The notes under the pieces: generated by a model | Database searches by the model: none | The model's input: the letters and a program-made list of their open reading frames with translations, nothing else | What the model was told of the DNA's origin: nothing | From: Saprospiraceae bacterium | Lineage (GTDB): Bacteria; Bacteroidota; Bacteroidia; Bacteroidales; JAIPBB01 | Length of the DNA: 14,797 nt | Assembly: GCA_021739805.1 (NCBI GenBank) | Contig: JAIPBB010000114.1 | Span: 1-14,797, forward strand | Direction of reading: 5' to 3' | Shown: one piece after another, positions 1 through 13,990 of the stretch | Layout of the letters: every line of letters begins with the position of its first letter | How positions within the stretch are numbered: position 1 is the stretch's first letter | Program-made: the position numbers and the translations under genes

Positions 1-20
1 AGATTAAAATAATTATTAAA

Positions 21-40
21 TAATCTGTGAATCTGTGGCT
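21..40. repeat. Tandem ATCTGTG motif, related to the terminal repeat at 5768/6104
   Basis: TAATCTGTGAATCTGTGGCT contains two copies of ATCTGTG 8 nt apart. The core TCTGTGGC-like sequence also occurs in the 17-bp inverted repeats that bound the non-coding element at 5768-6120. This suggests the left edge of the window holds the end of a similar non-coding repeat. Nothing else is visible in bases 1-60. Confidence 0.3.
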
Positions 41-111
41 TATAATTTAGTTTCCTTTGAAGTAACCAGAAAAAAACATCTCTAAAACATTAAATTTATA
101 AATTCTTTTTT

Positions 112-119
112 TACATTTG
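112..119 (+). promoter_or_regulatory. Candidate Bacteroidota -7 promoter box (TACATTTG) of the ModE-like gene
   Basis: TACATTTG fits the Bacteroidota primary-sigma -7 consensus TAnnTTTG exactly and lies 41 nt upstream of the ATG at 161. The predicted transcription start falls at the left edge of the palindrome at 124-147. No clear TTTG -33 box is visible at the expected spacing, so the promoter may be weak or may depend on another factor. Confidence 0.5.
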
Positions 120-123
120 CATT

Positions 124-147
124 CGATATGAATCAAAACTCATATCG
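124..147. promoter_or_regulatory. Palindromic operator, probable ModE-type binding site (copy 1)
   Basis: This is a perfect inverted repeat, CGATATGA-N8-TCATATCG. It starts 4 nt after the TACATTTG box and ends 13 nt before the start codon of the ModE-like gene. A palindrome over the transcription start of a winged-helix regulator gene is the usual place for an autoregulatory operator. Classic ModE boxes in enterobacteria are also A/T-rich palindromes with CG at the outer ends. The same half-sites with the same 10-nt inner spacing (CGWTATG-N10-CATATCG) recur at 1897-1920. That ModE binds here is inference. Confidence 0.6.
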
Positions 148-160
148 TAAATATATTTAA

Positions 161-532
161 ATGAAGCCTCCAAGAAGTTCAAAAAACGATGTTTTCCTAA
201 GATACAAATTGTGGTTATCCGCAGTTTCGGGAGAAGGTATTCTTGGAGACGGAAAATACAGATTGCTTCGAACGATTGAAGAAAAAGGATCTTTAAAAGC
301 TGCTGCTGACTCTTTAGGAATGAGCTACAGAAAAGCATGGGGTGATATTAAAAAAGCTGAAAATCTGCTTGGCTATGATCTTACTGACAAACATCGTGGC
401 GGTAAAGACGGAGGAAAGTCAACACTTACTGACAAAGCAAAAAATCTACTTGAAGCTTATGATGCCTTGCATAAAAAAATGGATACAGCCATTGCTGATG
501 CATGTGTTGAATTCAATGAAAAGATAAAATAA
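161..532 (+). CDS. Stand-alone ModE-type winged-helix transcriptional regulator
   Basis: This 123-residue protein is one LysR/ModE-type winged helix-turn-helix domain. Residues 27-62 carry the family signature: ILGDGKYRLLRTIEEKGSLK, then AAADSLGMSYRKAW, where the SLKAAADSLGMSYRKAW segment (44-60) is the helix-turn-helix. A basic wing follows (HRGGKDGGKSTLT, 78-90), then a C-terminal helix (91-123) that probably dimerises. Full-length ModE has about 260 residues, with two Mop domains that bind molybdate. Those are absent, so either this protein does not sense oxyanion directly or a partner does. The downstream genes are on the same strand, starting 50 nt after its stop. A palindrome over its promoter suggests autoregulation, and a matching site precedes the TonB operon. 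The family assignment is strong. Molybdate or tungstate as the signal is inferred from the family and from the Moco genes nearby. Confidence 0.88.
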   Translation: MKPPRSSKNDVFLRYKLWLSAVSGEGILGDGKYRLLRTIEEKGSLKAAADSLGMSYRKAWGDIKKAENLLGYDLTDKHRGGKDGGKSTLTDKAKNLLEAYDALHKKMDTAIADACVEFNEKIK

Positions 533-582
533 AATTTAGTTCTTTATTTATTAAAATTAAATTTGCCAACCCAAAAACTAAT

Positions 583-1329
583 ATGAGAATACTGATTGGC
601 ATAGACGACACTGATAACAAAGACAGTAGAGGAACAGGATACAATTCCAGACAATTGGCTGCTGCAATTGAAGCTGAAAATCTTGGACGGGTTCATGGGA
701 TTACACGACATCAATTGTTTGTTCATCCTGACATTCCTTATACTTCGCAAAACAGTTCGGCTTGTCTTGAAGTGATGACTGAGAATTTGAGTGAGATTAA
801 AAGTTTTTGCAGGGATTTTATGCAAAATATCGGTGCAATTGGTTCCGATGTTGGACTTTGCATAGTAGAAATTGATAAGATTTCTGAAGAGATAATTAAA
901 TGGGGAGTTGATGCAAAATCCATAGTACTAAAAATGGATGATGCAATTGAAAAAGCTGAAAGACATGAAATCTATCTCGAAGGATTAACAGGAACAAAAT
1001 GTGGAATTATTGGGGCATTGGCAGCAATTGGATTAAGAGCAGGCGGAAACGATGGGAGATTTATCTGGTTAAACTCAAAGAAAAATCTTCGTGATATTGA
1101 ACATGGAGTTGAAACTATTGAAGATTTGATTAATCAAACAGGAATTAATTTGGTTGAATCGATTGATAAAGAGATTATTAATCCAAAAGATAAAGTATAT
1201 TTAAATGAATGGGCAAGACCTGTTCTTCAAAACAATAAATCAGTTTTGTTAGTTGAAAAAATAACAAATAATAGTAATTATGAATGGAAATGTACAGCAA
1301 AAGAGTTTGTCAAGAAGTTATCTAACTAA
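583..1329 (+). CDS. Short TiaS-like protein (IDDTD kinase-like domain, no tRNA-binding domains)
   Basis: The N-terminus MRILIGIDDTD, followed by RGTGYNSRQLA, matches the phosphate-binding start of archaeal TiaS, the tRNA(Ile2) agmatinylcytidine synthetase. Residues 134-160 carry a second conserved block (GLTGTKCGIIGALAAIG, then GGNDGRF) typical of these proteins. At 248 residues it is much shorter than archaeal TiaS, which has about 420. It ends before the OB-fold and zinc-ribbon parts that hold tRNA, and no CxxC zinc motif is visible. Agmatidine formation is therefore unlikely, and the real substrate is unknown. It follows the ModE-like gene by 50 nt and overlaps the next gene by 50 nt, so it probably belongs to a Mo/W-linked unit. 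An ATP- or nucleotide-dependent role is inferred only from IDDTD. The homology is clear; the function is open. Confidence 0.75.
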   Translation: MRILIGIDDTDNKDSRGTGYNSRQLAAAIEAENLGRVHGITRHQLFVHPDIPYTSQNSSACLEVMTENLSEIKSFCRDFMQNIGAIGSDVGLCIVEIDKISEEIIKWGVDAKSIVLKMDDAIEKAERHEIYLEGLTGTKCGIIGALAAIGLRAGGNDGRFIWLNSKKNLRDIEHGVETIEDLINQTGINLVESIDKEIINPKDKVYLNEWARPVLQNNKSVLLVEKITNNSNYEWKCTAKEFVKKLSN

Positions 1330-1855
1330 ACTTTCGATTGCAAGCTTTTTAGAAATAATTCTCCTACTAGGAGCTGGTGTTTTAGCAATTGTGCTTCATG
1401 CGCGATTAAGAACTCCATTAAATATTCCAGGTCATCATGGCATTGAATTTATGGCAATAATTCTTGCTGCCCGACTAAGCTCAAAAATCAAATGGGCTTC
1501 CAGTATTTCTGCTTTGGGAATTGGAATTTTTCTATTGTTTCCGGTTCTCGGATTTAAAGACCCAATGATGGGTTTTAACTATATGCTACCTTGTTTTATG
1601 GTTGATTTGGCTTATAATTTTATGCAAAATAAAAAATACAGAAATTTAATTCTTGCTTTAGCTACCGGACTTGGTTATATGTTAATTCCTGTAAGCAGAC
1701 TAATTGCAACTATTTCCATCGGAATTCCATATAGTTCTTTCTTTAAGCATGGATTTATTACTCCAATGCTAACTTTCTTAATTTTTGGAATTTTAGGTGG
1801 GATTTTAGGAACAGGTATTTATTTTATTGGCAAAAAATTATTTAAAAAAATATAA
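1280..1855 (+). CDS. Multi-pass inner-membrane protein, ECF S-component-like
   Basis: The 191-residue product is strongly hydrophobic, with about five or six membrane segments near residues 20-42, 54-66, 72-92, 97-115, 122-146 and 158-185. It ends in a positive tail (GKKLFKKI). The motif TPLNIPGHHGIEFMAI (45-60), followed by a short helix-rich bundle, recalls small substrate-binding S components of ECF vitamin/metal transporters such as BioY. I cannot assign a substrate, and no EcfA or EcfT gene lies in the window. The ATG at 1280 overlaps the TiaS-like gene by 50 nt, so translation is probably coupled. A TTG at codon 10 is an alternative start, but the next in-frame ATG (codon 58) would cut off the first membrane helix. 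The context suggests a transport role connected with the ModE-like regulator. A stem-loop terminator starts 7 nt after the stop. Confidence 0.7.
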   Translation: MNGNVQQKSLSRSYLTKLSIASFLEIILLLGAGVLAIVLHARLRTPLNIPGHHGIEFMAIILAARLSSKIKWASSISALGIGIFLLFPVLGFKDPMMGFNYMLPCFMVDLAYNFMQNKKYRNLILALATGLGYMLIPVSRLIATISIGIPYSSFFKHGFITPMLTFLIFGILGGILGTGIYFIGKKLFKKI

Positions 1856-1861
1856 ATCTTC

Positions 1862-1886
1862 AAAGCGATATATTTTATCGCTTTTT
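1862..1886 (+). terminator. Probable Rho-independent terminator after the membrane-protein gene
   Basis: AAAGCGATA (1862-1870) and TATCGCTTT (1876-1884) form a perfect 9-bp stem with a 5-nt loop. A T-rich run reaches 1886. It begins 7 nt after the stop codon at 1855, separating the regulator unit from the TonB operon. The stem is not GC-rich, so termination may be partial. Confidence 0.6.
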
Positions 1887-1891
1887 ATTTG
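1884..1891 (+). promoter_or_regulatory. Candidate -7 box (TTTATTTG) of the lipoprotein/TonB operon
   Basis: TTTATTTG differs from TAnnTTTG at one position. It sits 5 nt before the operator copy at 1897-1920, almost the same geometry as TACATTTG and its operator upstream of the ModE-like gene. It overlaps the T tract of the terminator. No convincing -33 box was seen. Confidence 0.4.
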
Positions 1892-1896
1892 AACAT

Positions 1897-1920
1897 CGTT
1901 ATGCACAGTTTAACATATCG
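1897..1920. promoter_or_regulatory. Palindromic operator, probable ModE-type binding site (copy 2)
   Basis: CGTTATG-N10-CATATCG is a 7-bp inverted repeat with one mismatch. It has the same half-sites and the same 10-nt inner spacing as CGATATG-N10-CATATCG at 124-147. It lies directly downstream of a -7-like box and at the very start of the lipoprotein gene. Two copies of a 14-position motif with identical spacing, each at a promoter, are unlikely by chance. The binding protein is inferred to be the ModE-like product of 161-532. Confidence 0.55.
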
Positions 1921-2806
1921 TTTGAAAATTAAGAGGTTAATTCCAATTTTAATGCTGATTATTATTGCCATTTTTGGCTGCGAAAAGGAGAAAACTGATT
2001 ATCCTCCTCCTACTATTGAATTTATTACTGAAAGTGGATTTGTATTTAATGATACGATTCTTGAAATAGGGGAAAATTTTAAAATCGGCATTAAGGCAAG
2101 CAATCCAAATGTGAATCTGACAAATTTTATTATCCGCGTTCAGAGTGATGAACTTGAAACTTATCTTGATTCAGGGATGAATACTCCAAATCTTCATTTC
2201 GAAAGAAATATTACAAAAGGCATAAAAGAATCTGAAAAATGGATTTTTATAATTAGAGATAAAGATGGCAAATCAGCAGAAGTAAGCATAAATATAATAA
2301 AGGATTCTTCTTCGGCATTTGGAAACATTAAATATTATGCAAATATCGAAATGGGAGCTCAAAATAGTTCTGTTGGAAGTTTTTATTCTTTAACTAATGA
2401 TTCTGTTTATACTTTAAGCTCTGCTTTTGCAAATCAAAACAAAATCGACCTATGTTATTATTACGATTTTATCGACACTGACGAAAACACTATAGCTTCT
2501 CCGGGGGCAAATATTGATGCTTCTGTTTATACAGGGGCAAATGCCTTAGCCAACTGGACAAGCCGTCGAACAACAAGATTTAAGGTGGCAAATATATCTG
2601 AAAATGATTTTCTTAATGCCAATAACGATAGCCTTTTAATAGTATCTTATGGTCAATCTGATGGAAACCGAAAAGCTAAAAACCTTAAAACAACTGATAT
2701 TTTTTCTTTTAAAAATAATGATGGGAAAGTTGGCTTATTTAAGGTGAACACTATTACAGGAACTGATGCTGGGACAGTTAATATTTCAATAAAAATTCAG
2801 GAATAA
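1901..2806 (+). CDS. Outer-membrane-type lipoprotein of unknown function, operon with the TonB receptor
   Basis: The product begins with a basic segment and a hydrophobic stretch (IPILMLIIIAI) ending in a lipobox, IFGC. The Cys at residue 27 would be lipidated, followed by EKEKTDYPPP. The rest (about 275 residues) is polar and beta-rich, with no motif I can name. It has two parts: an Ig-like N-terminal half (TIEFITESGFVFNDTILEIG onward) and a C-terminal half rich in Asn, Ser and Asp. The stop codon overlaps the start of the TonB receptor gene (TAATG), so the two are translated together. The protein may sit on the cell surface as the ligand-binding partner of the receptor, as HmuY or SusD do in other systems, but it resembles neither. 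The frame opens with a TTG at 1889. I took the ATG at 1901, although it lies inside the operator; a TTG at 1922 (MKIKRLIPILM) would also give a good signal peptide and would leave room for a leader. Confidence 0.72.
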   Translation: MHSLTYRLKIKRLIPILMLIIIAIFGCEKEKTDYPPPTIEFITESGFVFNDTILEIGENFKIGIKASNPNVNLTNFIIRVQSDELETYLDSGMNTPNLHFERNITKGIKESEKWIFIIRDKDGKSAEVSINIIKDSSSAFGNIKYYANIEMGAQNSSVGSFYSLTNDSVYTLSSAFANQNKIDLCYYYDFIDTDENTIASPGANIDASVYTGANALANWTSRRTTRFKVANISENDFLNANNDSLLIVSYGQSDGNRKAKNLKTTDIFSFKNNDGKVGLFKVNTITGTDAGTVNISIKIQE

Positions 2807-4887
2807 TGAAAATGAAGTTTAAAATATTTTTTCTTGTTTATATAGTATTTTTATCTCAAACTGCATTGGGGCAAAGTAGTAATGTTGATGATACTATTAA
2901 TATTCCGGAATTTGTTGTTACTGCAAATCGCAGCATCAGAAATATTGATGATGTTCCCGGCAGAGTTGCAGTAATTGACGCAAAAACCATTGAAGAGCTT
3001 CCGGTTCAAAATGTAGATGAGATTTTAAGAAGTATTTCAAGCATTTATGTAAATCGCAGTTGGGGGATTTTTTCTCAAAATTCCAGCGTTACCATGCGTG
3101 GACTTGATGCAAGTGCAAGAGTTTTGGTATTGGTTGATGGTGTTCCTTTGAATAAATCTGCAGGTGGTTCTGTAAACTGGCATTTGATTTCAGTGAATAA
3201 TATCGAGAGAATTGAAGTTATAAAAGGACCGGCTTCGACAATTTATGGGAATAATGCAATGGCGGGAGTTATTAATATTATTACTAAAAATCCGAAGAAA
3301 CCACTTCAGGGAGAAGTTGGACTATTGGCAAGTTCTTATAATTCTTATGGTGGAAATTTTAATCTTTCAGGAACAAATATAAAAAAGAACAATGGTTTTA
3401 CATGGAGTTTAAATTCATTTTATCGCCAGGGAGATGGGTATATTCTTGAAAAAGAAGAATTGCGGGATTCTACTGATGTTAATGCTTTCCTAATGGAGTA
3501 TAGTATTGCCGGGAAACTTGCTTATAGTTTTAATAAAAATCACAAGCTTGAGTTTGCAGTTCAAACTTATGATGATTTAAGAGGACAAGGAAGAAAAGTT
3601 TATGAGGAATATGGTGATTATATGTCGGTGAATACTTCTAATTTGCGTTTAAGCTATGAAGGAATTTTTAATAAAACCGTTTTGAATGTTAACTCATTTT
3701 ATCAAATTGAAGATGAATTCAAACAGTCAGAATCAGTAAGTGCTAACAGTGGAAAATATAAACTCAGCGACAGGGATTCCCGAAAAGATGATTATGGAGT
3801 TTGGGTTAATGCTACAACTTACATTTCCGATAAAAATATTTTAAGCTATGGAATCGACTTGAAACAAGGGAAAGCCGATGTAACCAACACTTATATGACT
3901 TCAACAGATGTTCTGATTTATTCAGGAATACTTGATTTTTATGGGATTTTCGTTCAGGATGAGATTAATCTTTTAAACGACAAACTAACTATTGTTGCAG
4001 GTGCCAGATTTGATAATGCACGATACTATAAAGGAAAATTAATAGTTGAAAATCCAACATCAAACACAGGTTTTGTAACTCCTTTCGATGAAGATTTTAT
4101 TAATTCAAAATGGAATTCATTTAGCCCGAAAATTGCTTTGAAATACAAATTCAACAAATCACAATCTGTATATATTTCTTATTCAAAAGGTTTTATGCCA
4201 CCAAAGCTGGATGACCTTTCAAAATCGGGTAAAATCAACAAAGGATTTAAACTTGCAAATCCTGAATTGGGTCCCGAATATATTTCAAATTATGAAATTG
4301 GATTTAATTTAATATTCTTCAAAAAACTTACGATTGAGCCATCAATTTATTATTCATTAGGAAAAGATTTTCAATATTTTGTCGGGACAGGCGATTCGGT
4401 TGACACAGGTGGTGATGCAATAAAACCGGTTTATCAACGACAAAATATTTCAAATGTTGAGGTAATTGGTGCTGAAATTTCAACGAAATATCAATTATTA
4501 AAAAACTTACAAATCTCGGCTAATTACACTTTTAATGAGTCAAAAATTAAAGATTATAATACTGATAAAGCCAACGGAAATGATATAAGCGGTAACTTTT
4601 TGATTGAAGTTCCAAAGCATATGGTTTATGCAGGTTTAAGCTGGAAAAACAAATATTTCAACACGACAATTTCTTATAATTATATTTCCAGTCAATGGTA
4701 TGATGATGAAAACACAATTTCTATTGACGAATATGATATTATTGATTTACAATTATCAAGAGAATTTGCTAAAAAATTTTATGCTTCATTAAATATTCAA
4801 AACATTTTAAATGACCCATATATTGATAGAAAAGGTTATTTATCACCCGGGAGATTTATTACAGGAGAAATCAAATTTAAATTTTAA
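2806..4887 (+). CDS. TonB-dependent outer-membrane receptor
   Basis: This is a 693-residue receptor with a signal peptide (residues 1-23, cut near ALGQS) and a probable TonB box in PEFVVTANR (34-42). The plug domain covers about 45-162, with the usual signatures SVTMRGLDASARVLVLVDGV (94-113), RIEVIKGPASTIYGNNA (135-151) and GVINIIT. About 22 beta strands follow, ending in the expected terminal Phe (GEIKFKF). The length fits the BtuB/CirA/siderophore type rather than the SusC type of about 1,000 residues, and no carboxypeptidase-like N-terminal extension is present. It overlaps the lipoprotein stop by 1 nt and is followed after 27 nt by a T9SS-exported protein. The substrate cannot be read from the sequence. 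Because the operon starts with a copy of the palindrome that also precedes the ModE-like gene, I infer molybdate, tungstate or a complex of these. Iron, cobalamin or another metal remains possible. Confidence 0.93.
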   Translation: MKMKFKIFFLVYIVFLSQTALGQSSNVDDTINIPEFVVTANRSIRNIDDVPGRVAVIDAKTIEELPVQNVDEILRSISSIYVNRSWGIFSQNSSVTMRGLDASARVLVLVDGVPLNKSAGGSVNWHLISVNNIERIEVIKGPASTIYGNNAMAGVINIITKNPKKPLQGEVGLLASSYNSYGGNFNLSGTNIKKNNGFTWSLNSFYRQGDGYILEKEELRDSTDVNAFLMEYSIAGKLAYSFNKNHKLEFAVQTYDDLRGQGRKVYEEYGDYMSVNTSNLRLSYEGIFNKTVLNVNSFYQIEDEFKQSESVSANSGKYKLSDRDSRKDDYGVWVNATTYISDKNILSYGIDLKQGKADVTNTYMTSTDVLIYSGILDFYGIFVQDEINLLNDKLTIVAGARFDNARYYKGKLIVENPTSNTGFVTPFDEDFINSKWNSFSPKIALKYKFNKSQSVYISYSKGFMPPKLDDLSKSGKINKGFKLANPELGPEYISNYEIGFNLIFFKKLTIEPSIYYSLGKDFQYFVGTGDSVDTGGDAIKPVYQRQNISNVEVIGAEISTKYQLLKNLQISANYTFNESKIKDYNTDKANGNDISGNFLIEVPKHMVYAGLSWKNKYFNTTISYNYISSQWYDDENTISIDEYDIIDLQLSREFAKKFYASLNIQNILNDPYIDRKGYLSPGRFITGEIKFKF

Positions 4888-4914
4888 AATATATTAACAT
4901 CAAAATCAATCAAA

Positions 4915-5766
4915 ATGAAAAAAACAAACCTTTACACAGTTTTAGCGATTATTGCCTTTTTTGGGCTAATCCAAATTAATTCAAGTGCACAAGACACTCT
5001 TGTACAATGGACATTCCCTTCGGATACAGGAGTTGCTGATGGCGGATGTATTCCTGCAAATCTAATTCAGGAAATTGAAACTGCCGGTGGAACTAGTGCA
5101 ATTCAATTTAAAAATGGTTTAACAACAAAAGCTGCCCAGGCAACAGGCTGGCACAATGGTACAGATGCAAAAAAATGGAAAGTTGAATTTGAAACCACTG
5201 GTTACACAAATATTACATTATCATCAAAAATTACTTCTGGTGGTTCAAATCCCGGGCCTAGAGATTTTAAAATTCAGTATAAAGTGGGCAGTGGTGCTTG
5301 GACTGATGTTGCAAATTCAGAGTTTCAAACAGCTAATGATTGGACAACCGGTGTTTTAAATGACCTTGCTATTCCAAATAGTTGTTCAAACCAATCTTCT
5401 GTTCAAATCAGGTGGATTATGACTTCTGACACTGCAAGTAATGGTTCAATAGTTGACTCTACAGGAACTAGTAAAATTGATGACATCATTATTAAAGGAG
5501 CTGTAATGATTAATGTAAATGAAAACATTATTTCAGATTCAAAAATTAATATTTACCCAAATCCTACAACAGATTATTTAAATATTGAAAGCAATACTGC
5601 TTCAATAATAACGCTTTATAATATTATTGGAGAAGAAATTATAAGTTTAAACTCGAATAATTTTGAAAAGATTGATGTGTCAGAATTGAATTCAGGAATT
5701 TATTTATTAAAGATTGAGGATTTAACTGACAAGTCAGTAATTTTGCGAAAAATAATTGTCCAATAA
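4915..5766 (+). CDS. Secreted protein with a type IX (Por) C-terminal sorting domain
   Basis: A signal peptide (residues 1-25, MKKTNLYTVLAIIAFFGLIQ, then INSSAQ) leads into a beta-sandwich-like region of about 170 residues (26-198). This has regular Trp/Gly-rich strands (FKIQYKVGSGAWTDVAN). The last 75 residues are a T9SS type A sorting domain: INIYPNPTTDYLNIES (211-226), ITLYNIIGEEI, IDVSELNSGIYLLKIED (253-269) and the basic end ILRKIIVQ. The protein is therefore exported across the outer membrane and probably anchored at the surface or released. It has only two Cys outside the sorting domain (45 and 157) and no catalytic motif that I recognise. It starts 27 nt after the TonB receptor gene and probably shares its transcript, so it may capture or present the receptor's ligand. 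That role is inference. Confidence 0.85.
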   Translation: MKKTNLYTVLAIIAFFGLIQINSSAQDTLVQWTFPSDTGVADGGCIPANLIQEIETAGGTSAIQFKNGLTTKAAQATGWHNGTDAKKWKVEFETTGYTNITLSSKITSGGSNPGPRDFKIQYKVGSGAWTDVANSEFQTANDWTTGVLNDLAIPNSCSNQSSVQIRWIMTSDTASNGSIVDSTGTSKIDDIIIKGAVMINVNENIISDSKINIYPNPTTDYLNIESNTASIITLYNIIGEEIISLNSNNFEKIDVSELNSGIYLLKIEDLTDKSVILRKIIVQ

Positions 5767-5767
5767 A

Positions 5768-6120
5768 AAAATTGCCACAGATTACTCACAATAGTATTTA
5801 TAATGAAAGGTATTCGTGATTTCATTTCGTTAAATTCACAGATTAATGCCTAAAAAAACATGTATAAAGATTAGAATAAACTGTATAATTGTAAATTAAG
5901 AATAATATTTCGCTCCTACGGAGCTTTAAATTTTGGATATTGCCAAATTCTACAAATATTTCACTCCTAACGGAGTTATAAGAATAATCCCGTAGGGATG
6001 GAATATTTGTAAAAAAACATGCATCAAAAAACAAAAGCCCGTAGGGGTGAAATATTAAAAATCTGATACTTGGAGTAAGGAAAAACAAAAAATCAATTAA
6101 AAATAATCTGTGGCAATTTT
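5768..6120. repeat. 353-bp non-coding element with perfect 17-bp terminal inverted repeats
   Basis: AAAATTGCCACAGATTA (5768-5784) is the exact reverse complement of TAATCTGTGGCAATTTT (6104-6120). Between them lie four short related repeats, two in each orientation, and no plausible gene. The element fills almost the whole gap between the T9SS gene and moeA. Its structure fits a MITE-like or REP-cluster (BIME-like) element mobilised in trans. The minus-strand ORF across it is a hydrophobic translation of repeat DNA and is not called. No obvious target-site duplication was found. Confidence 0.6.
5904..6057. repeat. Four REP-like repeats (AATATTTCRCYCCTACGG), two forward and two inverted
   Basis: The forward copies start at 5904 (AATATTTCGCTCCTACGG) and 5956 (AATATTTCACTCCTAACGG). 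The inverted copies are at about 5990-6007 (CCGTAGGGATGGAATATT) and 6039-6056 (CCGTAGGGGTGAAATATT). The forward copies contain small hairpins: GCTCC-TAC-GGAGC at 5912-5924 and ACTCC-TAAC-GGAGT at 5963-5976. The middle pair (5951-6010) forms one larger imperfect hairpin. Repeats with this core are, from memory, common in Bacteroidota intergenic DNA. They could act as a transcript-end structure or as REP elements mobilised by a RAYT-type transposase. Confidence 0.65.
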
Positions 6121-6153
6121 GAAAGTACACAATTAACGCACAAATAATAAAAT

Positions 6154-7335
6154 ATGATAAAATTTGATGAAGCCTTTGATATAGTGCTAAATTCAGCTCA
6201 ATTTACCCTAGATGCTGAAAGAATTGATTTCATTGACTCTTTGGGAAGAATTCTTGCTGAAGATGTAAATTCTGATATAAATATGCCGCCATTCGACAAA
6301 TCTGCTATGGATGGTTTTGCATGCAGAAAAGAAGATATCAATAATGAACTTGAAGTTATCGAAGTGCTTCCTGCCGGTAAAATTCCTGAGAAAGTAGTTG
6401 GCAAAAATCAATGCACAAAAATCATGACCGGAGCTATTATTCCTGAGGGTGCTGATACTGTTATTATGGTTGAACAAACTGAAACCATTGCCGAGAATAA
6501 AATCAGGTTTACTGCCGAAAAAACCAGAAGCAATATTTGTTATTTTGCTGAAGACATTAAAAAAGATGATTTAGTTCTGAAAAAAGGAATTCAAATCAAA
6601 CCTCAGCATATTGCAGTGATGGCATCGGTTGGATGCACTCAACCACTTGTAACTAAGCAGCCAAAAATTGGCATTATTTCAACAGGTGATGAATTAGTTG
6701 AACCTGCTGAAATTCCTGCCAAATCACAAATCAGAAATAGTAATGGTTACCAATTAATTGCCCAGGTGAAAAGAGCCGGTGCAATTGCAAATTATATTGG
6801 TATTGCTGAAGATTCTGAAGAAGTAACTTTCAACACAATTACGAAAGCTCTTCAGGAAAATGATATTGTCCTTTTAACAGGTGGCGTTTCTATGGGTGAT
6901 TTTGATTTTGTTCCTGAAATAATGATAAAATGCGGCGTTGATATTAAATTCAGGTCGATGGCTGTTCAACCCGGGAAACCAACAATTTTCGGAACTTTCA
7001 ACAACAATAAATTTATTTTTGGATTACCCGGAAATCCGGTTTCTTCATACACTCAATTTGAGCTTTTAGTTAGACCCTTAATTCTAAAATTAATGGGAAT
7101 TTCTGAACAGCCTGTGATGTTAAAACTTCCGTTGGGTGCTGAGTATAAAAGGAGAAAATCAGTTAGAAAATCATTTATTCCGATAAACATTTCTAATGAT
7201 GGAAAAGTTTATCCTGTGGAATATCACGGTTCCGCACATATTCATTCTTATGTTTTTGCTGATGGAATAATTTCAATTGAAATAGGAAGAGAGATTTTAG
7301 AAATAGGAGAAATGGTGGATGTACGACAAATTTAA
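6154..7335 (+). CDS. moeA: Molybdopterin molybdenumtransferase MoeA
   Basis: MoeA inserts molybdate (or tungstate) into adenylylated molybdopterin, the last step of Moco synthesis in the cytoplasm. The 393-residue protein has the usual family length. It shows all the expected motifs: PPFDKSAMDGFA (45-56), IMTGAIIPEGADTVIMVEQT (90-109), ISTGDELV (175-182), NSNGY (195-199), the MPT-binding LTGGVSMGDFDFV (241-253), VQPGKPTIFG (271-280) and GLPGNPVSS (290-298). The C-terminal domain (about 320-393) is complete. The next gene, moaA, starts 17 nt before its stop, so the two are co-translated. The upstream gap is the repeat element at 5768-6120, and I found no clear promoter or ModE-like palindrome before this gene. 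Mo versus W specificity cannot be told from the sequence. Confidence 0.95.
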   Translation: MIKFDEAFDIVLNSAQFTLDAERIDFIDSLGRILAEDVNSDINMPPFDKSAMDGFACRKEDINNELEVIEVLPAGKIPEKVVGKNQCTKIMTGAIIPEGADTVIMVEQTETIAENKIRFTAEKTRSNICYFAEDIKKDDLVLKKGIQIKPQHIAVMASVGCTQPLVTKQPKIGIISTGDELVEPAEIPAKSQIRNSNGYQLIAQVKRAGAIANYIGIAEDSEEVTFNTITKALQENDIVLLTGGVSMGDFDFVPEIMIKCGVDIKFRSMAVQPGKPTIFGTFNNNKFIFGLPGNPVSSYTQFELLVRPLILKLMGISEQPVMLKLPLGAEYKRRKSVRKSFIPINISNDGKVYPVEYHGSAHIHSYVFADGIISIEIGREILEIGEMVDVRQI

Positions 7336-8119
7336 CAGGAAAATCAACTATCTGAGAATTTCAGTTACTGACAGATGTAATTTGAGATGCACTTATTGTA
7401 TGCCTGAATCAGGAATACAACTTTTGGAGCATTCTGAAATTATTTCGTTTGAAGAAATTGTAGATGTTGTTAAAATAAGTGTGAAACTTGGGATAGACAA
7501 AATCAGGATTACCGGTGGCGAACCATTAGTTAGAAAAGGAATTGTCAATCTGGTTGGAATGATAGCTGAAATTCCCGGAATTAATGATTTTGGGTTAACC
7601 ACTAATGGGATTTTATTAAAGAAATTTGCAAAAGAGCTAAAAGAAGCAGGATTGCACAGAGTAAATGTTAGCCTAGACACTCTTGATCCTGAGAAGTACA
7701 AAGAAATAACAAGACTTGGTAATATTGAAGATGTTATTGCTGGAATTTTCGAAGCTCAAAAAGTTGGATTAAATCCTGTTAAAATAAATTGTGTTATTAA
7801 AGAATCATCACAAGAAGCTGATGCTTTGGGAGTGAATGAATTTTGTAAAAAGAATAATTTGGAAATCAGATTTATTCACCAGATGAATTTGAATATGGGT
7901 CATTTTTCAGTTGTTGAAGGTGGTGAAGGTGGCGATTGTAAAATTTGTAATCGTTTGCGGTTAACAGCAGATGGAAATATTAAACCATGTTTATTCAATA
8001 ATCTTGAATATAACATTAGAGAGTTTGGTGTTAACGAAGCAATTAATTTAGCTTTGAAACATAAACCAAAATGTGGAAGTGTAAATAGCACGGGGGAATT
8101 TTATAATATTGGAGGATAG
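7319..8119 (+). CDS. moaA: Compact GTP 3',8-cyclase MoaA (radical SAM)
   Basis: MoaA and MoaC turn GTP into cyclic pyranopterin monophosphate, the first step of Moco synthesis. The radical-SAM cluster motif is C20-x3-C24-x2-C27 (TDRCNLRCTYCMPE), followed by GGEP (66-69) and NVSLD (116-120). The C-terminal substrate-binding cluster is C207-x2-C210-x13-C224 (CKICNRLRLTADG, PCLF). The essential C-terminal GG is present (FYNIGG). At 266 residues it is about 60 shorter than E. coli MoaA (329). Most of the loss is between the barrel (RFIHQMN, 184-190) and the second cluster, where a long linker is replaced by HFSVVEGGEGGD. All catalytic residues remain, so it is probably active, though this linker form differs from the classic one. 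The start overlaps moeA by 17 nt, with an AGGAGA-like sequence at 7305-7310. Confidence 0.9.
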   Translation: MYDKFNRKINYLRISVTDRCNLRCTYCMPESGIQLLEHSEIISFEEIVDVVKISVKLGIDKIRITGGEPLVRKGIVNLVGMIAEIPGINDFGLTTNGILLKKFAKELKEAGLHRVNVSLDTLDPEKYKEITRLGNIEDVIAGIFEAQKVGLNPVKINCVIKESSQEADALGVNEFCKKNNLEIRFIHQMNLNMGHFSVVEGGEGGDCKICNRLRLTADGNIKPCLFNNLEYNIREFGVNEAINLALKHKPKCGSVNSTGEFYNIGG

Positions 8120-8125
8120 AGAGTA

Positions 8126-8160
8126 CTTGGAGTGCACTTGAGTTTGGAGTGCCTGGAGTT
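8126..8160 (+). repeat. Short TTGGAGTGC-type tandem motif
   Basis: CTTGGAGTGC (8126-8135), TTTGGAGTGC (8143-8152) and CCTGGAGTT (8152-8160) form a degenerate 8-17 nt tandem array just after the moaA stop. Related strings occur near 6068 (ATACTTGGAGTA) and on the minus strand near 14744-14760 (AGAGTATTTGGAGTT). Confidence 0.35.
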
Positions 8161-8183
8161 AAAGGGAATACATAAATTCAAAA

Positions 8184-8300
8184 CGTCATTGCGAGGGAGG
8201 AACGACTGAAGCAATCCGTTGGAATAAAGATTAATAGAAATAAAAACAGATTGCTTCGCTTTACTTCGACTTCGCTCAGCACAGGCAGCTCGCAATGACG
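8184..8300. repeat. CGTCATTGCGAG hairpin repeat between moaA and moaC
   Basis: CGTCATTGCGAG (8184-8195) pairs perfectly with CTCGCAATGACG (8289-8300). Inside, GAAGCAATC (8208-8216) pairs with GATTGCTTC (8249-8257). This is a dispersed repeat seen in many bacterial phyla. The right arm also contains ACTTCGACTTCGCTCAGC (8263-8280), another frequent repeat core, which makes the right arm longer. The 117-bp unit is non-coding and fills most of the moaA-moaC gap. It could form a stable stem-loop in the shared transcript. A minus-strand ORF over it only translates the repeat. Confidence 0.7.
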
Positions 8301-8326
8301 GAGGAAGCAAAAAATATAACAATAAA

Positions 8327-8779
8327 ATGAACAAACTTAGTCATACCGACAACCAAGGAAAAGCCAATATGGTTGATGTTGGAAATAAACCAAATCAACT
8401 TAGAACTGCAAAAGCCGAAGGTTTTATTAGCTTAAATACAGAAACTGTAAAGCTTATTAAAGAAAATGAAATGAAAAAAGGTGATGTTCTTACTATCGCT
8501 GAAATTGCAGGTATACAAGGTGCCAAAAGGACTAGTGAACTTATTCCATTGTGTCATCCTTTGCAACTGACGAAAGTTGATGTAAATGCAAGCCTTGAAG
8601 AAAATGGAGTAAGAATAAAAAGTTTAGCAAGATGTATTGGGCAAACAGGTGTGGAAATGGAAGCATTAAATGGAGTTAGTGTTGCTCTGCTTACAATTTA
8701 TGATATGTGTAAGGCTGTTGATAAGAACATGATAATTAGTGATGTGAAATTGATTGAAAAAACTAAAGAAGATATTTAA
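8327..8779 (+). CDS. moaC: Cyclic pyranopterin monophosphate synthase MoaC
   Basis: MoaC converts the product of MoaA into cyclic pyranopterin monophosphate. The 150-residue protein has the typical family length. Visible motifs are MVDVGNKP (15-22), RTAKAEGFI (26-34), KRTSELIPLCHPL (67-79), the catalytic block GQTGVEMEALNGVSVA (104-119) and LTIYDMCKAVDKNM (121-134), which carries the conserved Asp and Lys residues. It lies on the same strand as moaA, 207 nt downstream across a hairpin repeat. The start ATG follows an A-rich stretch, as is usual for Bacteroidota, so no Shine-Dalgarno was needed to choose it. Confidence 0.95.
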   Translation: MNKLSHTDNQGKANMVDVGNKPNQLRTAKAEGFISLNTETVKLIKENEMKKGDVLTIAEIAGIQGAKRTSELIPLCHPLQLTKVDVNASLEENGVRIKSLARCIGQTGVEMEALNGVSVALLTIYDMCKAVDKNMIISDVKLIEKTKEDI

Positions 8780-8800
8780 TAAATATTTACATTTTTTAAG

Positions 8801-8935
8801 ACATTGAATTTCAAAATAACAAACCACAAAAAACAAATAAATTCCAATATCTAATATCCAAACCTTTTTGGTCATTATAATTTGGTGTTTGAGATTTATT
8901 TGAGATTTGAATATTGCATTTTGGAATTTGATTTT
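8801..8935. repeat. AT-rich imperfect hairpin between moaC and the MOSC-MogA gene
   Basis: The 215-nt gap after moaC holds CAAATAAATTCCAATAT-like sequence on the left and repeated GAGATTTATTTGAGATTTG-like sequence on the right. These are partly complementary, and the centre is CCAAA-CCTT-TTTGG (8858-8871). The low-complexity TTGGAATTTG/GAGATTTATTTG style matches, from memory, a dispersed intergenic repeat in several phyla. Pairing is imperfect and the boundaries are approximate. No gene is supported here. Confidence 0.4.
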
Positions 8936-8994
8936 TACTGCTTTATAGTAAATAAGAAAAACTAAATTCCACTTAATTAAACAAAGAGTAAAAG

Positions 8995-9930
8995 ATGAAA
9001 AAGAACACAATTAAAATCTTAAGCACAAATATCTCAACTAAAAAAGGAACTGTAAAAAAACCGGTTGAATTTATTGAACTAAACGACAGAGGAATTGTAA
9101 ATGATGCTCATGCAGGGAAATGGCACCGACAAGTTAGCATGTTAGGCAACGAAAGTTTCAAAAGATTTTCAGAGCTTGCAGGAAGAAGTATAAATTTTGG
9201 AGAATTTGCCGAAAACCTTACCACCGAAGGCATGGAACTTTTTAAAGCTTCTCCGTTGGACAGATTTTCAAATGAAAATATTGAACTCGAAATAACTCAG
9301 ATTGGCAAAAAATGTCATGGAGATTCATGTGCCATTTACAATGAAGTTGGAAATTGCGTTATGCCAAAAGAAGGAATTTTTGTCAGAGTTATTCGTGGTG
9401 GGAAAGTTCAAAAAGGTGACACATTTCAATATCATCCAAAACTCTTTAGAACTCTAATTATCACACTTAGTGATAGAGCAAGCAAAGGCGAATATGCTGA
9501 TAAAAGTGGTCCAAAAGTGAAAGAGGCAATCGATACTTTCTCAGGTTTTAATAATTTCAAAAACACAGTTGAAAATGTAATTATTGCTGATGATGAAATT
9601 CAATTAAAAGAAATCCTTCTCAAAGCAAAAAACGATTACGATTTTATTTTCACAACCGGTGGAACAGGTATCGGTCCCAGAGATATAACTGTGGATGTTG
9701 TGAAACCTATGCTCGACAAAGAAATTCCCGGAATTATGGAAATGATTCGTATGAAATATGGCATGGAAAAACCAAATGCCCTTATCAGCCGTAGTGTTGC
9801 CGGACTTTTAGGAAATACAATGATTTTCACTCTACCCGGAAGTGTAAAAGCTGTAAACGAATATATGACTGAAATCACAAAAGTTTTGCGTCATTTAATT
9901 ATGATGCTGAATGGGATTGATGCACATTAG
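8995..9930 (+). CDS. MOSC domain fused to molybdopterin adenylyltransferase (MogA/MoaB)
   Basis: This 311-residue protein has two domains. Residues 1-148 are a MOSC domain: NDAHAGKWHRQVSML (36-50), NLTTEGMEL (74-82) and the Cys-containing block KKCHGDSCAIYNEVGNCVMP (105-124), with Cys 107, 112 and 121, then EGIFVRVIRGG. MOSC domains carry sulfur or bind Moco. Residues 152-311 are MogA/MoaB, which adenylylates molybdopterin before MoeA adds metal: ITLSDRASKGEYADKSG (156-172), the MPT-binding TTGGTGIGPRDIT (220-232), EIPGIMEMIR (243-252) and SRSVAGLLGNTMIFTLPGS (265-283). Both domains look intact. The fusion suggests coupled handling of the adenylylated or metal-loaded cofactor, for example insertion or sulfuration. 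It is the last gene of the Moco cluster, 215 nt after moaC, and may also use its own promoter. I give no symbol because it is a fusion. Confidence 0.92.
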   Translation: MKKNTIKILSTNISTKKGTVKKPVEFIELNDRGIVNDAHAGKWHRQVSMLGNESFKRFSELAGRSINFGEFAENLTTEGMELFKASPLDRFSNENIELEITQIGKKCHGDSCAIYNEVGNCVMPKEGIFVRVIRGGKVQKGDTFQYHPKLFRTLIITLSDRASKGEYADKSGPKVKEAIDTFSGFNNFKNTVENVIIADDEIQLKEILLKAKNDYDFIFTTGGTGIGPRDITVDVVKPMLDKEIPGIMEMIRMKYGMEKPNALISRSVAGLLGNTMIFTLPGSVKAVNEYMTEITKVLRHLIMMLNGIDAH

Positions 9931-9998
9931 ATTTCATGCAGACTTTAAGCTATTTGCATTGATTTATATATTTTTCTCGATTTTCCCACTTTAATTAA

Positions 9999-10006
9999 TA
10001 AATTTG
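9999..10006 (+). promoter_or_regulatory. Candidate -7 promoter box (TAAATTTG) of the ligase/hydrolase operon
   Basis: TAAATTTG fits TAnnTTTG exactly and lies 52 nt before the ATG at 10059, in the 128-nt gap that separates the Moco cluster from the next operon. A TTTG -33 box at the usual spacing is not evident. Confidence 0.35.
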
Positions 10007-10058
10007 GACAAATTATTTAATTTACTATTCACCATTTTGCACTAAAACTACTATCATT

Positions 10059-11060
10059 ATGAAAATTTGCTTTATTATGAGTCCTTGGGAAAAGATTAAA
10101 CCCAAACAGGATTCAACACTTAGAATAATTCATGAATCAGTATTGAGAGGTCATGAAGTAGCTATTACCAGCACATCTAACCTCACCATACGAGACAGTA
10201 TAACACTTAGTTATTGTCGAACTATAGAGCCAATATCCAAAATTTCTAATAGTTACAATTCCTTCTATAATTCTGTGATTTTCAAAAATGAAATGCGTGC
10301 TTTAAAGGAATTTGATGTGATTTTTATGCGTGAAGACCCACCTTTAGATTCCTTAGTCCTTAACTTCTTAGATTCTATTAAAGACGATGTATTTATTATC
10401 AATGCCATAAGAGGTCTTCGGGAAGCAAATAATAAAATTTATACTGCTGCTTATTACGATCCTGAAAGAGAGTTGATACCGACTACTCATGTTTCCAAGA
10501 ATATTGATTATCTATTAAAAATAATCAAAGAATCTGAAAATGATAAAATGATTATGAAACCACTTGATGGTTATGGAGGAAGTGGAGTAATCGTAATCGA
10601 AAAATCGGCTATGCACAACATTAAATCTCTTCTTGATTTTTATGTACATCACAGCGAAGGAAAATCTAACTATGTAATTCTGCAGGAATATGTTGAAGGA
10701 GCCGAAAATGGCGATGTGCGAGTGTTGATGCTTGATGGTAAACCAATTGGAGCACTTCGTAGAAGACCTGCTTCAGGAGATGCAAGGTCAAATATATCGG
10801 CTGGTGGAAGTGTTGAAAAATATATTTTAACAAAAACTGATAAGAATCTTTGCGAAAAAATTGGAGAAAAACTCGTTCGAGATGGAATTTACTATGCAGG
10901 TCTCGATATTATTTCAGGAAAACTTATTGAAGTTAATGTATTAAGCCCCGGAACTATAACTGATATAAATCGACTAAACAATACTAAAATCCAAAAGAAA
11001 ATTCTTGATTTCTTAGAGAATACTGTTGCCAAAATAAATAGAGAAAAAAGAATATTCTAA
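10059..11060 (+). CDS. GshB-like ATP-grasp ligase
   Basis: The 333-residue protein has the layout of prokaryotic glutathione synthetase (GshB). There is an N-terminal Rossmann-like part (1-120) with FMREDPPLD (89-97, matching the GshB DPP motif). The ATP-grasp part has KPLDGYGGSGV (167-177), QEYVEGAENGDVRVLMLDG (209-227), RSNISAGGSV (243-252, the RGNLAAGG-type nucleotide loop) and the metal-binding EVNVLSPG (291-298) with Glu 291 and Asn 293. Such enzymes join a carboxylate to an amine at the cost of ATP. No gshA-like gamma-glutamylcysteine synthetase is nearby. The following gene, 9-18 nt downstream, encodes amide- and peptide-hydrolase domains. The acceptor may therefore be a peptide other than gamma-glutamylcysteine. 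Fold and reaction type are well supported; the substrate is unknown. Confidence 0.85.
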   Translation: MKICFIMSPWEKIKPKQDSTLRIIHESVLRGHEVAITSTSNLTIRDSITLSYCRTIEPISKISNSYNSFYNSVIFKNEMRALKEFDVIFMREDPPLDSLVLNFLDSIKDDVFIINAIRGLREANNKIYTAAYYDPERELIPTTHVSKNIDYLLKIIKESENDKMIMKPLDGYGGSGVIVIEKSAMHNIKSLLDFYVHHSEGKSNYVILQEYVEGAENGDVRVLMLDGKPIGALRRRPASGDARSNISAGGSVEKYILTKTDKNLCEKIGEKLVRDGIYYAGLDIISGKLIEVNVLSPGTITDINRLNNTKIQKKILDFLENTVAKINREKRIF

Positions 11061-11069
11061 ATTAAAATA

Positions 11070-13082
11070 TTGGAACAAATGCAACATTTGGAAATTAAGG
11101 AAATCATAAAATTAATTAAATCAGGAAAAACCTTTGAAGCAATTTCAACTGATGGTTCTTTGAAGATTAAAATTACCAGGTATTTACCTTACTGTTGCAC
11201 TGCAATACATGATGGAAGTAATTTACGAACGAGTCTTAGTGAAAAAATTGCCTTGGATAATTTCAGTCGATGGCATGAGGAAGACCCATTTACAGGAGAT
11301 TTCATTGCTTCAATGCCAATTACTTTAATAGCAAATGATTCTCGTTTTGAATATGATTTAAACCGAAATCCTGATGATTGCATTTATGAAGAAGCCTGGG
11401 GGAAAAAAGTTTGGAAAAGAAGTTTAACACCAAAAGAAATACAAATAAGTAAGCAAAAACATGCAAATTATTATAAAGTTACGCACGCACTAATCGAAAA
11501 ACTGGAGGAATTATTTGATGCTTGTGTGGTTTATGATTTTCATTCTTATAACTATAAACGTTGGGACAGAAAAGTACCATTATTTAATATTGGAACTGAA
11601 AAATTAGATATTAATAAATACAATTCAATTCTTAAAAACTGGACAGATGAACTTTCAGCTATTTCACTTCCAGATATTGAGAATGTTACAAATACAAACG
11701 ATGTATTTTTTGGTAGAGGATATAATCTTCAATACATAACTGATAATTTTAAGAATACGCTGGTTCTTGCTACAGAAGTGAAAAAAGTATATTGCGATGA
11801 ACTTACAGGAGATGTTTACCCCAAAATTGTTAAACTATTACAACAAAAATTAAAAAAGGCAATTTTAAATAATGCCAATTTTTTTAGTCATAAAATGACA
11901 AATTGGAAATTTGAAAAGGCGGCCAAACTTTTGGATAACAATATTGATAATACTATTTTCAAAGTTGACAAAGGACTGTATAACCTATTAAAGAATTTTG
12001 AACTTTTAGTCTACGTAAACCCCAATAATACTAAAACTGAAAAAAACAGATTTTTTAAAAGCAAATTTACAGAACCCCCTAGATTCAAATATAGACCAAT
12101 ACCAATTGAATTTTACAGTTTAAAACAAGAATTAAGTAATCTTAAAGTTCAGGATATTTCTGATATTACAATCAGGAATTTATATGAATCAGTTATCAAT
12201 AGTTATTTCGACAAAATTGATTTGTTGTCCACACTAAATACTCCTAAATTTTTATATAACTCTCTTCGCTACTATGGACGACCTACGAAAAAGGACATTC
12301 AAAATGCACAATACTTATTATATGTTCCGCCAATAGCAGGTGAACCTACTCGGTCACCAAGCTTAGGAACTGACCAAGCCATTCAAAGTTTTAAGGAAAG
12401 TTTAGAAAGCTACGGTTTTGATGCCAAAATAGAATTGAGTAATAAAGTAATCTCGCAGGTGATGGTTCTAAACTCTAAAAAAACTATTTTATTTAAACCA
12501 GATGCAAAATTTACGAGAACAGAAATTAGTGCAATGGTTGCTCATGAGATTGGTGTTCATATGCTTACAACTATTAATTCGAATCTGCAAAAACTTAAAA
12601 TTTTCAATCTTGGGTTACCGGTAAATACAATGACACAGGAAGGATTAGCTATATTATCAGAATATTTAAGTGGTAACATTACTATTAAGCGTCTTAAGAA
12701 AATAGCTTATAGAGTTATTATTACTGATATGATGTGTAGCGGTGCAAATTTTATGGAATGTTTTAAGTTTTTAATTGATAACCATATGGAAGACCCAAAT
12801 GATGCTTTCAGTTTAGTTACCAGGATTTTCAGAGGTGGTGGATTTACTAAAGATTATCTTTATTTAAATGGTTTTGTGAAAACCCTACGTTTCTGGGAAA
12901 GTAATCATAATCTTGAACCACTTTTAGTTGGCAAAACATCACTTGAATTTTATAATACTATCGTAGAAATGATAGAAAGAGATATGATTCAAAAACCAAA
13001 ATATATAACACAAAGTTTCATTAAACCTAAAATTGAAAATAATAATGAAATTTATGAATATATTTTTAGTGGGCTGAAATAA
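11070..13082 (+). CDS. Fusion: N-formylglutamate amidohydrolase-like domain + DUF1704/QEGLA (MATCAP-like) metallopeptidase
   Basis: This is a 670-residue fusion. Residues about 25-265 resemble N-formylglutamate amidohydrolase (HutG-type FGase): AIHDGSNLR (45-53), FTGDFIA (74-80), VVYDFHSYNYKR (153-164) and LATEVKKVYCDE (233-244). Residues about 290-670 are DUF1704, called in databases 'flavohemoglobin expression-modulating QEGLA motif protein'. They carry the HExxxH zinc motif AHEIGVHMLTT (491-501), TQEGLA (522-527, probably supplying another ligand), TRIFRGGGFTKDYLYLNG (584-601) and two-helix packing around them. The animal members of this family are MATCAP/KIAA0895L tubulin tyrosine carboxypeptidases. 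Both catalytic cores look intact. No signal peptide is visible, so it acts in the cytoplasm. It follows the ATP-grasp gene by 9 nt. I took TTG 11070; ATG 11079 is an equally possible start, giving 667 residues. The link to flavohemoglobin is only a family name. Confidence 0.85.
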   Translation: MEQMQHLEIKEIIKLIKSGKTFEAISTDGSLKIKITRYLPYCCTAIHDGSNLRTSLSEKIALDNFSRWHEEDPFTGDFIASMPITLIANDSRFEYDLNRNPDDCIYEEAWGKKVWKRSLTPKEIQISKQKHANYYKVTHALIEKLEELFDACVVYDFHSYNYKRWDRKVPLFNIGTEKLDINKYNSILKNWTDELSAISLPDIENVTNTNDVFFGRGYNLQYITDNFKNTLVLATEVKKVYCDELTGDVYPKIVKLLQQKLKKAILNNANFFSHKMTNWKFEKAAKLLDNNIDNTIFKVDKGLYNLLKNFELLVYVNPNNTKTEKNRFFKSKFTEPPRFKYRPIPIEFYSLKQELSNLKVQDISDITIRNLYESVINSYFDKIDLLSTLNTPKFLYNSLRYYGRPTKKDIQNAQYLLYVPPIAGEPTRSPSLGTDQAIQSFKESLESYGFDAKIELSNKVISQVMVLNSKKTILFKPDAKFTRTEISAMVAHEIGVHMLTTINSNLQKLKIFNLGLPVNTMTQEGLAILSEYLSGNITIKRLKKIAYRVIITDMMCSGANFMECFKFLIDNHMEDPNDAFSLVTRIFRGGGFTKDYLYLNGFVKTLRFWESNHNLEPLLVGKTSLEFYNTIVEMIERDMIQKPKYITQSFIKPKIENNNEIYEYIFSGLK

Positions 13083-13144
13083 GAGCTAAATTTTTCAGTG
13101 AAAAGTAACTGCTAATTGACATTATTTTGATATCCATATAATAG

Positions 13145-13152
13145 TAATTTTG
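13145..13152 (+). promoter_or_regulatory. Candidate -7 promoter box (TAATTTTG) of the secreted-protein gene
   Basis: TAATTTTG fits TAnnTTTG and lies 32 nt before the ATG at 13185. A TTTG occurs at 13126-13129, but its spacing of 15 nt is shorter than usual. A TTGACA (13116-13121) and a TATAAT (13137-13142) with a 15-nt spacer are also present. They are less likely to serve the Bacteroidota primary sigma factor. Confidence 0.35.
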
Positions 13153-13184
13153 ATTTTAGTATTTATTATCCTTATGATGAAAAG

Positions 13185-13931
13185 ATGAAATTCCTGTTAA
13201 GTCTGACAATAATATATTTTACCTTATTCTCCTTTGTTTTCGGACAGGATGATTTATATAATGAATATTTAATGAATCCTCCCGACACCTTTAAAACCTA
13301 TAAGCCAGCAGAAATAAAATATGTTGAAACTCTTGACTCAGTTAATGGTAATATTTTTGATTCAATTTTAAATCCTACTGCATATTTTATTGATACTTAC
13401 AAGCCTGGTAAAGGATATTCCTGGTGCATTGCATTAAAAAAAGAAAACCATTATCTGGTGTTTAACCCTTTTGAAAACAGCGATGCCGACTGCTCATTAA
13501 ACGATTTGAGTTTTGAAAGAAAGAATTTTAATGATTGCGGAAATGAAGAACTTATAATTCTTTGGAATAACACTTTAGGTCATACCGGATGGGAATCAGC
13601 TATCTATGAAAAGAACAAAGGAGAATTAATTTGGGATTTAGATAGCCTGACAAAGCTTTTTGATTTTCAAAATTACTATAGTTTTGAATCATGGTGGACT
13701 ACTTATGCACCTGATTCAACTGACACTCTTGACTATTCGGAAAGAGAAGTTCTTGACACCGGTGGTGAAAGTTTTTGTGAAAATTTTATTATTAAAATTG
13801 ACAAGAAGAAATTAACTATTCAATACGATAATGATTGCCAAATTCTAAACGGAAATATTGAGCAAAAGAAAACAGACAATAAAATTTATATTTATAAATT
13901 GACAGATAAGGGATTAATAAAGCAAAATTAA
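13185..13931 (+). CDS. Secreted protein of unknown function
   Basis: I do not recognise this 248-residue protein. It has a clear signal peptide (MKFLLSLTIIYFTLFSFVFG, cut before QDD) and no lipobox, so it is probably periplasmic or exported. It has no T9SS sorting domain. The mature part is acidic and aromatic-rich, with five Cys (81, 103, 118, 198, 218) that could form disulfides. The stretch GKGYSWCIALKKENHYLVFN (75-94) and a GHTGWESAIYEK segment (132-143) are the most distinctive. It stands alone between the ligase/hydrolase operon (102 nt upstream) and a convergent gene. A very short ORF (ATGATGAAAAGATGA, from 13174) overlaps the start codon and might affect translation. The start at 13185 is supported by the signal peptide. 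Confidence 0.75.
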   Translation: MKFLLSLTIIYFTLFSFVFGQDDLYNEYLMNPPDTFKTYKPAEIKYVETLDSVNGNIFDSILNPTAYFIDTYKPGKGYSWCIALKKENHYLVFNPFENSDADCSLNDLSFERKNFNDCGNEELIILWNNTLGHTGWESAIYEKNKGELIWDLDSLTKLFDFQNYYSFESWWTTYAPDSTDTLDYSEREVLDTGGESFCENFIIKIDKKKLTIQYDNDCQILNGNIEQKKTDNKIYIYKLTDKGLIKQN

Positions 13932-13990
13932 ATTAAAAATTTCAGCAACAACCAGAAACTGGAAAACAGTGAATAAACTATTTGAAATTG

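Follow-up and report, generated by a model that had tools for sequence, protein, structure and literature searches.

A predicted ModE regulon variant with a sensor-domain-less regulator and tungsten-type targets in Bacteroidota and beyond

Introduction

In Escherichia coli, the regulator ModE represses modABCD. Tungstate regulators of the TunR type combine a recombinase-like DNA-binding domain with Mop domains, and in HmuY/HmuR-type systems a lipoprotein is paired with a TonB receptor. Here we analyse, against these systems, a DNA stretch of 14,797 nucleotides from a Saprospiraceae bacterium (GenBank assembly GCA_021739805.1, contig JAIPBB010000114.1, positions 1 to 14,797 of the forward strand; the whole stretch is called here the window), which carries a gene for a 123-residue ModE-like regulator followed by a lipoprotein/TonB-dependent receptor operon, each preceded by a similar palindrome.

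The E. coli ModE box is given as ATCGNTATATA-N6-TATATANCGAT in the relevant part of PMC545781, and a nearly identical consensus appears in that of PMC2700814. A passage of PMC2408646 presents E. coli ModE as an activator of moa; its wording for modABCD is "upregulates", though the reference cited there names ModE as its repressor. PMC545781 notes ModE proteins with a single domain in Desulfovibrio and Desulfotalea psychrophila and calls their sensing mechanism unclear; the section concerned reports that E. coli-type sites were looked for and not found in those genomes, and proposes the motif CGGTCACG-N14-CGTGACCG for Desulfovibrio. Among the matches listed in a search of open-licence literature (titles and abstract openings), neither a ModE-AOR-P5CDH regulon nor a TonB tungstate system was found. 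AOR stands here for aldehyde:ferredoxin oxidoreductase, which belongs to a tungsten-enzyme family.

Compared with the E. coli regulon, the system of the window shares the winged-helix fold and the box core CGNTAT-N12-ATANCG, and in both an enzyme operon would be activated, moa in E. coli (passage of PMC2408646) and, as inferred here, AOR. It differs in that the regulator is devoid of Mop sensor domains, in box positions 7 and 18, which are G and C, and in the targets, which are AOR, P5CDH, WtpA, a TonB module and the regulator's own gene. With the single-domain proteins of Desulfovibrio and D. psychrophila it has in common a ModE-like DNA-binding domain alone; it differs in having E. coli-type sites, which that section of PMC545781 did not find there, and targets for them. 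The tie to tungstate/molybdate homeostasis is shared with TunR, but the regulator is here a ModE-like winged helix without Mop. As in the HmuY/HmuR pair, a lipoprotein precedes a TonB receptor, and the window receptor is closest to the heme receptor family model; unlike that pair, the HmuY match lies below the cut-off and the genes belong to a ModE-box regulon. Judged from sequence, the circuit is a widely conserved ModE regulon variant in which the regulator lacks sensor domains and the targets are of the tungsten type.

Results

Two operators are read directly from the window sequence: operator 1, CGATATG-AATCAAAACT-CATATCG (124-147), and operator 2, CGTTATG-CACAGTTTAA-CATATCG (1897-1920). 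The consensus of the Bacteroidota -7 box is TAnnTTTG. The modE-like promoter has an exact copy, TACATTTG (112-119, forward strand), separated from operator 1 by 4 nt, and the TonB operon a -7-like box with one mismatch, TTTATTTG (1884-1891, forward strand), with a 5-nt gap to operator 2. The latter box sits within the T-tail of an intrinsic terminator (1862-1884, forward strand; hairpin with a folding z of -3.4). The sequence-only reading had described two palindromes of equal half-sites and spacing at these positions, each 4-5 nt after a -7-like box, and both coordinates and sequence agree with it. Operator 1 lies 13 nt 5' of the modE-like open reading frame (ORF, 161-532), while operator 2 ends one base 5' of an in-frame TTG (1922). 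Because starting at this TTG yields a signal peptide on the lipoprotein, as judged by eye, the mechanical ORF start at 1889 is probably too early and TTG 1922 the better one, which places operator 2 within the leader. When up to three mismatches were allowed on both strands, the window contained 7 motif matches against 1.1 expected, four of the seven being the two operators, and none of 200 shuffled windows held at least 7. Likewise, the rate of the reversed pattern (26 sites across 393 genomes, each about 1-7 Mb long) corresponds to far fewer than one site per 14.8 kb. The two palindromes are genuine rather than coincidental. A sigma-70 promoter scan, which does not cover Bacteroidota promoters, gave 32 hits versus 32.5 in shuffles.

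The ModE-like regulator (161-532, forward strand) is 123 amino acids long, with a winged-helix HTH_1 as its only domain; C-terminal tandem Mop/TOBE molybdate-binding domains were not found in it. It scores 80 bits with TIGR00637, below the 98.5 cut-off, and among solved structures both its sequence and its fold come closest to 2ijl of A. tumefaciens and E. coli ModE (1b9m). The gene encodes a ModE-like winged helix that lacks a sensor domain and lies close to moeA-moaA-moaC (6154-8779), and the operator core CGNTAT-N12-ATANCG is present at both window sites and in relatives. With the same core and spacing as the E. coli box, the motif CGWTATG-N10-CATAWCG is, by its sequence, a variant of the known ModE box and not the new Bacteroidota type first proposed for it. 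When positions 7 and 18 were left free, they were G and C in all 33 modE-upstream sites, including that of the window, instead of the A and T of E. coli. At exact sites the half-site extends as CGWTATG(T/C)A, position 7 being fixed there by the search pattern. Viral contigs that were scanned gave no close relative of the regulator and 28 pattern matches, none of which was confirmed.

The sequence-only reading had called for a motif search upstream of orthologous genes, and 80 loci encoding relatives of the ModE-like protein were compared, each site being scored by the number of the 12 fixed motif positions matched within 120 bp upstream of modE. A site of at least 10/12 was kept at 38 of the 80 loci (24 at 12/12), as against 9 of 755 other ORFs there. 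Of the 16 closest loci, 15 have the modE site and 9 the TonB-lipoprotein site, which corresponds to operator 2; a third site occurs 2.4-5.5 kb upstream in all 16, and precedes AOR, identified by Pfam, in both loci tested (L001 and L003). By blastp, AOR lies upstream of modE in 16/16. The loci L008-L010 gather AOR, modE, moe/moa genes and P5CDH in a single cluster. In 18 selected loci, most of which come from other phyla (including Planctomycetota, Hydrogenedentota and Spirochaetota), the site is usually found about 170-340 bp before modE, and a WtpA-like gene directly 3' of modE in 10. In seven loci of other phyla (L049, L053, L068, L069, L071, L078 and L080), a long leader separates the box from the modE-wtpA pair by these same 170-340 bp or so; six of the seven (L069 not included) gave no Rfam match. 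A known riboswitch in the long leaders of non-Bacteroidota modE-like loci is unsupported, as an Rfam search of the window and seven such loci returned no family at gathering thresholds.

The genome-wide tests used the genomes of relatives, with CGWTATG-N10-CATAWCG as the exact motif and the reversed pattern as control. In 21 genomes holding modE-like loci, exact sites were detected in 20 (1-3 each, 41 in total), compared to 2 for the reversed pattern. Across 393 genomes of one order, the exact motif occurs in 63 (93 sites) and the reversed pattern in 24 (26 sites), the ModE-like protein being encoded in 110 at E<=1e-25. The motif follows the protein, as it was found in 50 of the 110 genomes with it versus 13 of the 283 without (odds ratio 17, p 8e-21), and the reversed pattern does not (p 0.35). 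At the looser cut-off of E<=1e-10, the corresponding values are 50/137 and 13/256. Where the protein is missing at E<=1e-25, there are 0.053 motif sites per genome, near the 0.060 of the reversed control. AOR (PF02730, E<=1e-15) is encoded in 107 of the 110 genomes with the protein versus 43 of the 283 without (p 3e-56).

The targets were examined for 68 of the 93 order-wide exact sites (67 regions). In 54, the site adjoins a gene for P5CDH-type aldehyde dehydrogenase (22), the TonB module (18), ModE (7), AOR (6) or WtpA (5), some sites being shared by two genes; 4 lie inside ORFs and 10 elsewhere. By contrast, none of 28 reversed-pattern sites adjoins such genes and 21 are inside ORFs. The regulon is therefore wider than the two-site local one initially read from the window and includes AOR, P5CDH and WtpA genes in related genomes. 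Conservation at the modE loci and at the TonB-module sites supports the proposed link of modE-like autoregulation to the TonB operon. Three of the 18 TonB-module sites first adjoin a homologue of the type IX secretion system (T9SS)-sorted protein (L151, L155 and L161), whose sorting tail is common to many proteins, and only L155 continues with lipoprotein and TonB genes. Of 12 proteins tested, 11 exceed the cut-off of TIGR01236 (P5CDH), and this label replaced that of a generic aldehyde dehydrogenase; the exception is L117, where another aldehyde dehydrogenase comes first after the site. TIGR03730 (WtpA) was above cut-off in all 7 relatives tested and NF003196 in 5 of them. For AOR, 2 of 9 PDB homologues are named tungsten enzymes; the L001 protein has clear Pfam domains and reaches 91 of 868 bits with the NCBIfam model, far below its cut-off. 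That AOR, P5CDH and WtpA are among the targets points to tungsten.

Some target regions hold further genes. In L101 (7637-9190), L110, L116, L119, L122, L140, L148 and L166, the P5CDH gene is followed by a second aldehyde-dehydrogenase-like gene, which in L101 scores above cut-off as L-piperidine-6-carboxylate dehydrogenase, hinting that lysine-derived semialdehydes are also involved. In L134 and L137, the site lies about 95 bp ahead of a 226-aa ORF, after which comes a distant AOR homologue (26-27% identity); the regulon may include a two-subunit tungsten enzyme here. In three genomes (L108, L124 and L150), CGTTATGGAACTTCCNCCATATCG matches lie inside long ORFs, where a conserved coding stretch mimics the box.

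The position of the site relative to the -7 box was compared on distinct sites only; the upstream test has a background of 1.2% and the downstream test one of 2.9%. Of 47 modE promoters, 25 have an exact TAnnTTTG that begins 8-14 nt ahead of the site, and an exact -7 box stands just before the site in 19 of 35 P5CDH-type promoters. Of 31 AOR promoters, 29 have the exact box starting 30-46 nt downstream of the site, and none has it just before. The AOR sites are asymmetric as well, with CG at the left end in 31/31 and at the right end in 7/31. A site directly after the -7 box, as at modE and P5CDH, would suit repression, and one about 40 nt upstream of it, as at AOR, activation; we infer the direction of control from this position alone.

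The window further encodes, on the forward strand, a TiaS/methanogenesis-marker-11-like protein (583-1329) with weak matches below family cut-offs (TiaS structure 4rvz, E 2e-4). This protein is short, with a weak TCKD-type domain, and its frame overlaps by 50 bases that of a membrane protein (1280-1855, forward strand) whose predicted fold resembles energy-coupling factor (ECF) S components, a candidate inner-membrane uptake part. The label is tentative because ECF S components and pMMO-B were almost tied in the fold comparison. A canonical ECF module was not favoured, EcfT (PF02361) being mostly absent (2/20 genomes with a 1280-1855-type gene and without WtpA, versus 2/20 others); there are reports of S components that function on their own. 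Next come, all on the forward strand, the lipoprotein (1922-2806, likely TTG start), with a weak resemblance to HmuY (E 0.021, below cut-off), the TonB-dependent receptor (2806-4887; PF00593/PF07715), whose nearest model is the TIGR01785 heme receptor family, below cut-off, and a T9SS-sorted protein (4915-5766; PF18962). The TonB operon and the TiaS-like and S-component-like genes are candidate parts for tungsten/molybdenum uptake. The pterin-cofactor genes moeA, moaA, moaC and a MOSC-moaB fusion (6154-9930, forward strand) adjoin the module. Further along (11070-13082), an N-formylglutamate amidohydrolase-like domain is fused to MATCAP (tyrosine carboxypeptidase), beside a glutathione-synthetase-like gene.

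Discussion

These results make it likely that the sensor-domain-less ModE is a dual, tungsten-linked regulator of metal uptake and enzyme choice. In the mechanism that we propose, the 123-residue protein would form a winged-helix dimer without molybdate-sensing domains and bind CGWTATG-N10-CATAWCG. Given enough tungsten (or molybdenum), it would cover the transcription start and thereby repress its own gene, the TonB/lipoprotein operon, the tungstate importer WtpABC in genomes that have it, and P5CDH, an NAD-dependent glutamate-semialdehyde dehydrogenase that needs no metal. It would at the same time activate AOR, an enzyme of the tungsten family, through a site whose centre is at about -65; metal scarcity would reverse the pattern. 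Both window sites would be of the repression type. The metal may be sensed by direct oxyanion binding, through a partner such as the TiaS-like protein, or by control of the regulator's abundance. A stand-alone Mop sensor partner was considered and rejected, since in 30 genomes tested the TIGR00638 matches were open frames of 348-423 aa, except for one 85-aa frame (G384); one of the matches is the WtpC-like ATPase of L106.

Several observations weigh against this proposal. No exact site is present in 60 of the 110 genomes with the protein, and in 42 of the 80 loci the 120 bp upstream of modE hold not even a 10/12 site; either the pattern overlooks sites or certain clades are different. The -7 box stands just before the site in only 7/31 TonB-module and 2/8 WtpA promoters, and 2 of 35 P5CDH-type sites have it at the AOR-type distance. 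The genes for AOR, P5CDH and WtpA are all absent from the 14,797-nt window, although the AOR gene would fall outside it because the window starts 160 bp 5' of modE. The co-occurrence with AOR may come partly from general pterin-cofactor use. Among the 30 genomes, a Mop domain was detected in none of the 10 that are WtpA-negative, and the regulator too is without Mop. Finally, some AOR-family enzymes prefer molybdenum, e.g. E. coli YdhV, according to a passage of PMC13328260.

This last point also speaks for a molybdenum signal, in which case the system would be an ordinary ModE regulon in short form and the AOR relatives merely pterin enzymes. The protein, the box geometry and the neighbouring moa/moe genes are all ModE-like, and sequence alone cannot separate the two oxyanions; the recurrent targets, however, are AOR, with its tungsten-named homologues and its presence in nearly every genome with the protein, and WtpA, named for tungstate, and we regard molybdenum as a rather unlikely signal. 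Also on the unlikely side, to a similar degree, is constitutive binding with metal control exerted via the amount of the protein or via a partner, for instance the TiaS-like protein: the finding of no sensor domain in the protein would fit, and a truncated E. coli ModE was reported to repress without molybdate, but the AOR/P5CDH arrangement would be left without a switch, and L008-L010 keep the sites while the TiaS-like gene is absent. That a different regulator, merely co-occurring with the ModE-like protein, binds the sites is improbable. It would account for the motif in the 13 genomes without the protein, five of which have AOR; against it stand the E. coli core and spacing, the recurrence of the site beside modE-like genes, and a motif rate without the protein that is about that of the reversed control. 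The four order-wide sites inside ORFs could suggest chance matches or coding-sequence artefacts, an explanation with next to no probability left, as it is contradicted by the shuffles, the genome association, the target adjacency, the promoter positions and the enrichment upstream of modE.

Under the tungsten-linked regulation that we favour, the analysis assigns a likely operator and regulon to the single-domain ModE group, nominates outer-membrane and inner-membrane candidates for tungsten uptake, and raises the question of how a ModE without sensor domain would read the metal supply. It also offers a testable case of a swap between a tungsten enzyme and a metal-free enzyme under a single regulator. 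More tentatively, and with less than even confidence, we propose that across Bacteroidota and beyond a sensor-domain-less ModE tungsten regulon would exchange tungsten AOR, which would then be a glutamate-semialdehyde oxidase, for the metal-free dehydrogenase, and would also control an undescribed TonB-dependent tungsten uptake, in which an HmuY-like lipoprotein, a TonB receptor and a solitary S-component-like permease with its TiaS-like partner may replace WtpABC.
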